Assembly (NCBI GenBank): GCA_003553525.1 | Contig: PWEO01000044.1 | Location: 1-40,337, forward strand | Length of the DNA: 40,337 nucleotides | Reading direction: 5' to 3' | Source: Clostridiaceae bacterium | GTDB taxonomy: Bacteria; Bacillota; Clostridia; Peptostreptococcales; T1SED10-28 | Part shown: positions 16,681-18,861 of the stretch, piece by piece | Numbering within the stretch: position 1 is the stretch's first letter | Layout: every line of letters begins with the position of its first letter | Made by a program: the position numbers and the translations under genes | Notes under the pieces: generated by a model | Databases searched by the model: none | What the model was told of the DNA's origin: nothing | Seen by the model: the letters and a program-made list of their open reading frames with translations, nothing else

Positions 16681-16718
16681 ATACCCATATAATCAATGAA
16701 AATCGATTATATGGGTAT
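16681..16718 (+). terminator. Strong hairpin ending the sigma operon
   Basis: A perfect 14-bp stem (16681-16694 with 16705-16718) has a 10-nt loop. It lies five bases after the zinc-ribbon gene and separates the sigma operon from the selenoprotein gene. The T content after it is modest. Confidence 0.65.
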
Positions 16719-16812
16719 TAATGTTTATAAATAGGGTTTTCGATTTTTGTAACACGCTTCAGAGAACAGGTGGAAAGTCCTCGGAAAAAACTCAGAAAAG
16801 AAGGTGAGAGCA

Positions 16813-17103
16813 GTGAAAATTGAAATAAGCGAAAAAGCCAAGGAATACGCCTTAAGCGTGGGAAAGCCCGTCATCATCCGTTATGATAAAAAAGGATGAT
16901 GCCACAGCGGCTTTCGCTATGTTCCGGTGATTGATTTTAGCGATGGCAAAGATAGTCTGGAAGACTATGAAAAACATGAAGTTCAGGGAATTACGCTTTA
17001 TATCAGCAAAAAAGCGGAGTTGGAGGATGAAAAGATTACTATTGATCTTGCTCAGTTGTTTAAATGGAAACAGTTTACCGTGGAAGGTCTGAAGGTGGTA
17101 TAA
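16813..17103 (+). CDS. Selenoprotein with Sec-Cys motif (HesB-like / CC-Se motif family)
   Basis: 96 residues when the in-frame TGA at 16897-16899 is read as selenocysteine (residue 29), directly followed by Cys30 in a KKGUCHSGF context. Start is GTG 16813 with AAGGTGAG upstream. Coding continues in frame for 67 codons past the TGA to TAA 17101. The N-terminus KIEISEKAKEYAL and the C-terminus (GITLYISKKAEL, ITIDLAQLFKWKQFTVEGLKV) look like the small HesB-like family, in which a Cys-Cys or Sec-Cys pair sits after the first strand. A downstream stem-loop may be the bacterial SECIS. Its 3' end overlaps the convergent PLP-enzyme gene by 29 bases. The molecular role of the family is not settled; redox or selenium/sulfur transfer is plausible. 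Confidence 0.85.
16903..16943 (+). other. Candidate bacterial SECIS element
   Basis: Just 3' of the TGA codon two exclusive folds are possible. One is TCGCTA (16914-16919) with TAGCGA (16938-16943), an 18-nt loop containing GGTG, starting 14 bases after the TGA. The other is a shorter stem with AGCG (16906-16909), CGCT (16915-16918) and loop GCTTT. Bacterial SECIS loops usually lie about 16-37 bases after the TGA with a G in the apical loop, which favours the first. Confidence 0.45.
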
Positions 17104-18070
17104 GCCCGAAGACCCCGCCGGTATGAATGAAAAGGATCCTTTGAGCGTTATTAAAGGTTCCTTTTTTGATTTCCTCTGTTAAACCATACAGCGCTTTCCC
17201 TGTGTAAACGGGATCCAAGAGAATTCCCTCGGACCGGGCAATGTGTTGCAGGAAATCCCATTCCACGGCTCGGCTTTTTCCATATCCTTCTCCCACATAG
17301 CCGTCAATAATGGTAATGTTCTCCGGCACGAACCGGGGATGATGGGCATCCGGGGGAGTGGAATCAATATAGGTTACCGCTTCTTTAAGTATCAAGGAAA
17401 TCCGGTGCTGAAATGTTTTAGCATCGGCGGCAATATTAAAACCGATAATTTCTCCGGGGTAGTCATACATAACTTTTCCTAAAATTAAGCCTCCTAAGGT
17501 AGAACCGGAGCCCGTAGGAACAACCACCGCGTCAAAGGAAAAGCCCAAGGACTTTTCCTGTTCTTGAATTTCTTTAATTACATCACTATAGCCGAAACAG
17601 CCTAGACCGTTGGAAGCCCCTTCGGGAATGATGTAAGGGGTTTTCCCCTGGTTTATTAACTGATTTGCCAGGTCTTCGAGAAGCTCTTTCCGGCGGTGCT
17701 GATAATCGGATTCGCTGATCCGTTTAATGGTAGCACCAAAAAGATGATCCAGCAAATAATTTCCGATCATCTCCGGTTCCCGGTTTTCCTTTAAAATCAG
17801 ATACACGGGAATCCCCAGTTTGGCCCCCAGGGCGGCAGTGGCCCGGCAGTGGTTGGATTGGATCGCTCCGCAGGTAATTAAAGCGTCGGCCCCTTTCCCG
17901 AAGGCTTCCTCCATTAAGTATTCCAGTTTTCGGATTTTATTCCCGGAGAATTCTATTCCCGTTTGGTCGTCTCTTTTGATATAAATCTCGGGACCCTTTA
18001 AGGATTTGCTTAATCGGCCAAGCTTTTCTATTTTAGTTGGCAACGTGGCGTAAGATCTTTTGTTTAACAT
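17075..18070 (-). CDS. PLP-dependent D-cysteine desulfhydrase / ACC deaminase family enzyme
   Basis: 331 residues from the ATG at 18070, which follows AAGGAGG; the longer frame upstream runs into the permease gene. Fold-type II PLP enzyme: the PLP lysine is K45 in FSGNKIRKLEYL, followed by GAIQSNHCRATAALGAKLG and the glycine-rich phosphate loop VPTGSGSTLGGL. The family includes D-cysteine desulfhydrase (giving pyruvate, sulfide and ammonia) and 1-aminocyclopropane-1-carboxylate deaminase; the first is more likely in an anaerobe. It is the last gene of the ABC operon, 23 bases after the permease stop, and its tail overlaps the selenoprotein gene. Confidence 0.82.
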   Translation of the reverse strand: MLNKRSYATLPTKIEKLGRLSKSLKGPEIYIKRDDQTGIEFSGNKIRKLEYLMEEAFGKGADALITCGAIQSNHCRATAALGAKLGIPVYLILKENREPEMIGNYLLDHLFGATIKRISESDYQHRRKELLEDLANQLINQGKTPYIIPEGASNGLGCFGYSDVIKEIQEQEKSLGFSFDAVVVPTGSGSTLGGLILGKVMYDYPGEIIGFNIAADAKTFQHRISLILKEAVTYIDSTPPDAHHPRFVPENITIIDGYVGEGYGKSRAVEWDFLQHIARSEGILLDPVYTGKALYGLTEEIKKGTFNNAQRILFIHTGGVFGLIPPSDLPR

Positions 18071-18093
18071 AAATACCTCCTTACAATCTAGGT

Positions 18094-18861
18094 TTAAAGA
18101 ATTTCCATGGTTTTTATCCGTCGAATGGTTCCAAACAGGCATAGGGCAGTTAAAACAATGGTACTTCCTAACACCGGGGCTAGAGAAGACCAGTCAAAGA
18201 AAAATTTCGCGCTTTCCTCTATTAAACCGTAGGGAAGGAAATTTTGCAAGGAACTAAAATTATTCAACAGAGGAAAAATCAGGAAAGAAACAAACAATGT
18301 CAACAGTACCGAGGGAATTCCTTTTTGGATAATGCTGATTAAGAGGAACAACAGGGAGATAAGAAAAATAAAGTACAGGGAAAAAAGCATGCCCCCCTGG
18401 AGCACTCCCGATATATCCAAACCGGTATATTCAAACAGTACTCGGCCGTAAAAGTTATTTACCATAAATCCCAAAAGGGTGGCAACCACAAGTCCGGTTC
18501 CGTACAAGAGGAATTTTGATAAAACCAGGGTCGTGGCACTTCCGCCTTTGCTTCGGGGAAGAATCCAATATTTTCTCTGTAATTCATGGGCAAGGGTTCC
18601 CATAATCGTAAGGGTTACCACAATCAATCCGATCTGGGAAAGGTTGCCCATATAACTTCTAAGAAGTCCCTGTTGGGAGGTATCCATCATCCCCATCATG
18701 GCAGGATCAAAGCCTTCGCTTTCCAGGATCAAGGGAAGCATTCGATACATAATCGGTTCCATCAGTCCGAAAAGAATGTAGGTAATGATCAGAATTAATA
18801 TTCGATAGGTTCGAAGATTTTCGAGAAATTCTTTCTTAAAGTACGCGAAAAAGTTTTTCAT
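18094..18861 (-). CDS. ABC transporter permease (YxlG-like)
   Basis: 255 residues. Six hydrophobic segments, with a short cytoplasmic N-terminus FFAYFKKEFLENLRTYR and a large outer loop between the first two, as in ABC-2 permeases. IGLIVVTLTIMGTLAHELQRKYW is a typical ABC-2 stretch. It overlaps the ATPase stop by four bases (ATGA) and has AAGGTGGTGA before its ATG, so the two are co-translated. In B. subtilis the comparable permease YxlG belongs to the SigY operon. The transported compound is unknown. Confidence 0.82.
   Translation of the reverse strand: MKNFFAYFKKEFLENLRTYRILILIITYILFGLMEPIMYRMLPLILESEGFDPAMMGMMDTSQQGLLRSYMGNLSQIGLIVVTLTIMGTLAHELQRKYWILPRSKGGSATTLVLSKFLLYGTGLVVATLLGFMVNNFYGRVLFEYTGLDISGVLQGGMLFSLYFIFLISLLFLLISIIQKGIPSVLLTLFVSFLIFPLLNNFSSLQNFLPYGLIEESAKFFFDWSSLAPVLGSTIVLTALCLFGTIRRIKTMEIL

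Follow-up and report, generated by a model that had tools for sequence, protein, structure and literature searches.

A CC/Se motif family gene with an in-frame TGA, almost certainly read as selenocysteine, in a Clostridiaceae bacterium

In a contig of a Clostridiaceae bacterium, a short gene-like frame runs into a TGA codon and continues beyond it, directly into a cysteine codon. Does this TGA encode selenocysteine (Sec), and if so, to which family does the protein belong and what could it do? The window, i.e. the whole stretch of DNA that was analysed, is 40,337 nucleotides long. The frame begins with a GTG at 16813 and proceeds through 28 codons, the TGA at 16897-16899, a TGC and 66 sense codons to a TAA at 17101-17103. 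The TGA, codon 29, is the only one in the 96-codon frame. An earlier note on this DNA had described the same arrangement, with its ribosome-binding site, and our reading of the window agrees with it. The features are the following.

16800-16808, + strand: GAAGGTGAG, ribosome-binding site, spaced by 4 bases from the GTG
16813-17103, + strand: putative selenoprotein gene, 96 codons plus TAA; VKIEISEKAKEYALSVGKPVIIRYDKKG-U-CHSGFRYVPVIDFSDGKDSLEDYEKHEVQGITLYISKKAELEDEKITIDLAQLFKWKQFTVEGLKVV
16897-16899, + strand: in-frame TGA, codon 29, taken as selenocysteine from the reading of the frame and its conservation
16900-16902, + strand: TGC, Cys30, a likely redox partner adjoining Sec29
16910-16947, + strand: candidate bacterial SECIS stem-loop, six-genome consensus, apical loop 16925-16932; weak (z -0.44)
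17075-18142, - strand: convergent gene for a PLP enzyme of the D-cysteine desulfhydrase family, a neighbour retained in relatives

The mechanical ORF finder lists no ORF on the + strand at 16813-17103, as would be expected from the earlier claim that normal gene calling loses the gene. Gene finders split or lose such a gene because a stop codon in its middle is read as selenocysteine, and the annotation given here corrects this. We scanned the window for TGA-interrupted frames, defined by a start, at least 25 codons, a TGA and at least 60 codons. Three cases lie clear of other genes, and 16813-17103 is the one with homologues. A changed genetic code was also considered as the cause of the in-frame TGA and was rejected. 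TGA terminates five of the 30 genes in the window, so it is an ordinary stop codon in this genome and is not generally reassigned.

The gene, with a single TGA in each case, is present in the window's genome and in all five others of the taxonomic family. In these five relatives the gene order is the same, with a sigma-factor set on one side of the selenoprotein gene and the gene of the D-cysteine desulfhydrase family on the other. The immediate neighbours match in all five, and in the best-assembled relative 17 neighbouring genes match. Divergence of the relatives' proteins from that of the window reaches 38%, and in the DNA many sites before and after the TGA have changed synonymously (3' of it, 4-11 of 35 codons in pairwise comparisons of six distinct relatives). 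The segment KKGUCHSGFRY.PVI is kept, and the C-terminal FKWKQLTVEGLKVV is largely kept across six relatives. The start codon is GTG or ATG in the relatives, and the AGGTG core of the ribosome-binding site is retained. Because the protein is kept on both sides of the TGA despite synonymous change in the DNA, a chance open frame is ruled out; a pseudogene is rejected by the conservation in six genomes. A scan of named genomes with the single protein returned one close relative only, a Clostridiales MAG record with 86% identity.

The absence of the Sec machinery from the genome had been named beforehand as grounds for abandoning the selenoprotein reading. All four genes, selA, selB, selC and selD, which are expected in a genome with a bacterial selenoprotein, are present. 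The selA (609 bits), selB (377 bits) and tRNA-Sec (74.6 bits) genes are clustered side by side on contig C122 of the source genome, and ARAGORN calls the tRNA as tRNA-SeC with the anticodon tca (UCA). The selD gene is found on contig C143, and its own frame contains one in-frame TGA. Judged from the sequences compared here, the TGA at codon 29 is almost certainly read as selenocysteine.

The evidence for a SECIS element is mixed. According to published criteria (PMC13188914), a bSECIS has an apical loop of 3-9 nt with a G in the first two positions, located 16-37 nt after the UGA, an upper stem of 4-16 bp and an MFE of -7.5 or lower. A consensus stem-loop at 16910-16947 is common to the six genomes, with only two covarying pairs. 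Its loop has 8 nt, is located 25 nt after the UGA and carries the G in second position (third in the relatives), and the upper stem above an internal loop has 2 bp. Loop size, spacing and energy thus lie within the published limits. The stem-loop 3' of the TGA that the earlier note had pointed out is present as a predicted fold of -11.1 kcal/mol, but it is no more stable than shuffled sequence (z -0.44; 66 of 200 shuffles reach this stability), and it fits the bacterial SECIS model in part only. An Rfam search of the whole window gave no match. The synonymous difference is lower in codons +1 to +8 (0.22 versus 0.42 upstream and 0.30 further on) but not in codons +1 to +17 (0.32), so that the variation 3' of the TGA is only suggestive of a SECIS. 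From the predicted fold, it is plausible that 16910-16947 acts as one.

Against the NCBIfam model NF041239, "CC/Se motif family (seleno)protein", the read-through protein scores 70 bits (curated cut-off 40, E 1.3e-19). The match spans residues 1-93 on profile positions 1-91 of 91, i.e. the whole model, and the earlier impression that the protein is continuous in character across the TGA holds, both in this match and in the conservation of the two sides in six genomes. By its profile match, the gene is a member of the NF041239 CC/Se motif family. It has the same size as the family and Sec at the same motif, which in the family is Cys-Cys or Sec-containing and follows a Gly-rich loop; here it reads KKG-U-C-H. 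The family is already listed by databases and reviews, and the gene is an added member of a known selenoprotein family. A 2026 review lists it as 'CC/Se motif family selenoprotein (hypothetical protein predicted in Moorella thermoacetica)' (PMC13188914, Table 1). The review gives CxxU for the motif, whereas the window's gene has Sec-Cys (UC) after KKG. Unlike in the family as known, two extra residues also separate the Sec of the window protein from the conserved Pro. With its relatives, the gene adds six clean UC-type members to the family.

The motif had earlier been likened to a small HesB-like / CC-Se motif family. The CC-Se part of this is borne out by NF041239, while the HesB-like part is reduced to a remote resemblance, as far as profile scores tell. 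The Pfam Fe-S_biosyn model (PF01521) scores 19.8 bits, below its gathering cut-off of 26.3. More generally, the similarity to the A-type iron-sulfur carriers IscA/SufA/HesB (PF01521, TIGR02011) is weak and below the curated cut-offs. The C-terminal CxC of these carriers is missing from the window protein, which has no Cys after residue 30. A point of resemblance to the A-type carriers is a GCSG-like motif around the first of their conserved Cys residues. The HesB-like selenoprotein is listed apart from NF041239 (PMC13188914), under TIGR01911 with a UxGP motif (PMC1794560, PMC13188914). The window protein is like it a small Sec protein with a G-U motif and a remote HesB/IscA resemblance, but it does not match TIGR01911 at E values up to 1, has UCHS instead of UxGP and has no C-terminal Cys. 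A protein search of plasmids gave no match, a profile search of solved structures gave chance-level hits only, and the single-sequence AlphaFold prediction (mean pLDDT 45.5) is unusable.

On contig C25 of the source genome (L100:1468-1779) there is a second small protein with an in-frame TGA. It is TIGR01911-like, contains VGUGGPTFG, ends in GGGSC and scores 47 bits against TIGR01911, below the model cut-off of 66. The source genome thus seems to have a separate copy of the classical HesB-like selenoprotein (UGGP).

Across the phylum, family members are found in 90 of 398 sampled genomes. The motif classes of 60 members are UA (21), UC (13), CC (11), UU (6), UG (3) and CU (2), with four members having none. 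In 23 of the 24 UA/UG members a Cys is located at -3, +3 or +4. The alignment of homologues proposed in the earlier note does find Sec or Cys at the motif elsewhere in the family, in the classes UC, CC, CU, UU, UA and UG, as is expected, along with a conserved in-frame UGA, of a bacterial selenoprotein. Neither of the two outcomes that the note had named as refuting its reading, a genome lacking the Sec genes or homologues that stop at the TGA or show no Cys/Sec there, was thus observed. From the alignment, Sec29 likely occupies the same column as the Sec of the Moorella-type members, its column-exact identity being uncertain because the motif alignment needs a gap in the window's clade. A strong selA match is found in 85 of the 90 genomes with the family and in 171 of the 308 without it (p 1e-13, from a hand tally of two lists, uncorrected for relatedness). 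Three draft genomes (G173, G181, G248) have a TGA-bearing member and no selA match, likely due to an incomplete assembly or a decayed gene.

Taken together, we consider it probable, at roughly 0.85, that this is a real NF041239 selenoprotein with SelB-driven Sec insertion at codon 29, in which the Sec29-Cys30 pair is most likely a thiol/selenol redox centre. SelB would deliver Sec-tRNA-Sec to the UGA, aided by the RNA stem-loop just 3' of it, and the product would be a 96-residue protein with Sec29 and Cys30 adjacent. Sec29 would attack an oxidised substrate (a disulfide, peroxide or similar), Cys30 would resolve the resulting intermediate, and thioredoxin or a like reductant would recycle the pair.

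The link to thioredoxin comes from distant members of the family. At 25 of 97 loci a thioredoxin gene is found within 1.1 kb, always on the same strand; in the main UA clade it is 0-41 bases away, and directly upstream of three UC members there is a thioredoxin-thioredoxin reductase fusion. The loci with an adjoining same-strand thioredoxin or fusion gene are L029, L033-L035, L038, L040, L042-L044, L047, L053, L057, L058 and L101; many of them are from related genomes, so the independent events are few. Such neighbourhoods, and the Sec/Cys pair itself, suggest a selenol/thiol redox protein that is coupled to thioredoxin. In the window's lineage no thioredoxin gene is located beside the selenoprotein gene, and its redox role is therefore assigned by family.

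Alternatively, the Sec/Cys site could bind metal, selenium or sulfur for delivery, like the A-type iron-sulfur carriers, and not turn over substrates. This would fit with the distant Fe-S_biosyn/IscA resemblance (19.8 bits and 13 bits) and with the enzyme encoded by the convergent neighbour, a member of the D-cysteine desulfhydrase family. However, the Cys-x-Cys of IscA/HesB is missing and the distant members accompany thioredoxin and thioredoxin reductase. Little weight attaches to the adjacency of the PLP gene, which is convergent and lies in a region that is syntenic throughout. We find such a delivery role rather unlikely. The selenoprotein gene and the convergent gene share a 29-base 3' overlap (17075-17103), which seems to be present in the relatives too.

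The genes directly upstream, on the same strand and kept in the relatives, encode an ECF sigma factor, a protein in the anti-sigma position and a zinc-ribbon protein. The selenoprotein might thus be a redox regulator or sensor that reports the thiol or peroxide state, e.g. to this sigma-factor set, and not an enzyme. However, about 136 bases separate these genes from the selenoprotein gene, and the long inverted repeat found there (16683-16720 region) may be a terminator. Synteny here is also general and not specific, and a regulator is improbable. That the TGA terminates translation, so that the 28-codon 5' piece is a short peptide or a dead remnant and is followed by a pseudogene, agrees with TGA as a normal stop and with the empty ORF list, but is scarcely credible given a single identical TGA in six genomes with up to 38% protein difference, the conserved downstream protein, the complete Sec machinery and the Cys at the motif elsewhere in the family.

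On the redox reading, a role that can be tested emerges for the family from the motif survey and the recurrent thioredoxin neighbourhood. We tentatively propose, as a possibility that may well prove wrong, a thioredoxin-linked redox family in which the vicinal pair is the working centre, Sec and Cys are freely interchangeable at both of its positions (CC, UC, CU, UU), and the resolving Cys shifts to -3 or +3/+4 in forms with Ala or Gly in second place. The natural series CC, UC, CU, UU offers a way of asking what selenium adds. If the proposal is true, the Sec-Sec form would make a vicinal diselenide. Neither the review (PMC13188914) nor the papers searched here describe such a centre, and the review contains no vicinal di-Sec form of this family.

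Some genomes hold further copies. In the other genus of the window's taxonomic family, a second, divergent member (L028, G005:C4) has the reversed order Cys-Sec (RCULG). L063 and L069 are paralogues without Cys or Sec at the motif (GTAGG), alongside Sec-bearing copies in the same genomes. Eleven paralogues (L141-L151) have two adjacent TGA codons (Sec-Sec, e.g. GUUNAFYAPSG.GKPEN), with the UU at about base 2060-2165 of each. Most of these adjoin an aldehyde ferredoxin oxidoreductase-like gene, and an iron-sulfur hydrogenase-like gene is often found on the opposite side, both identified by eye.
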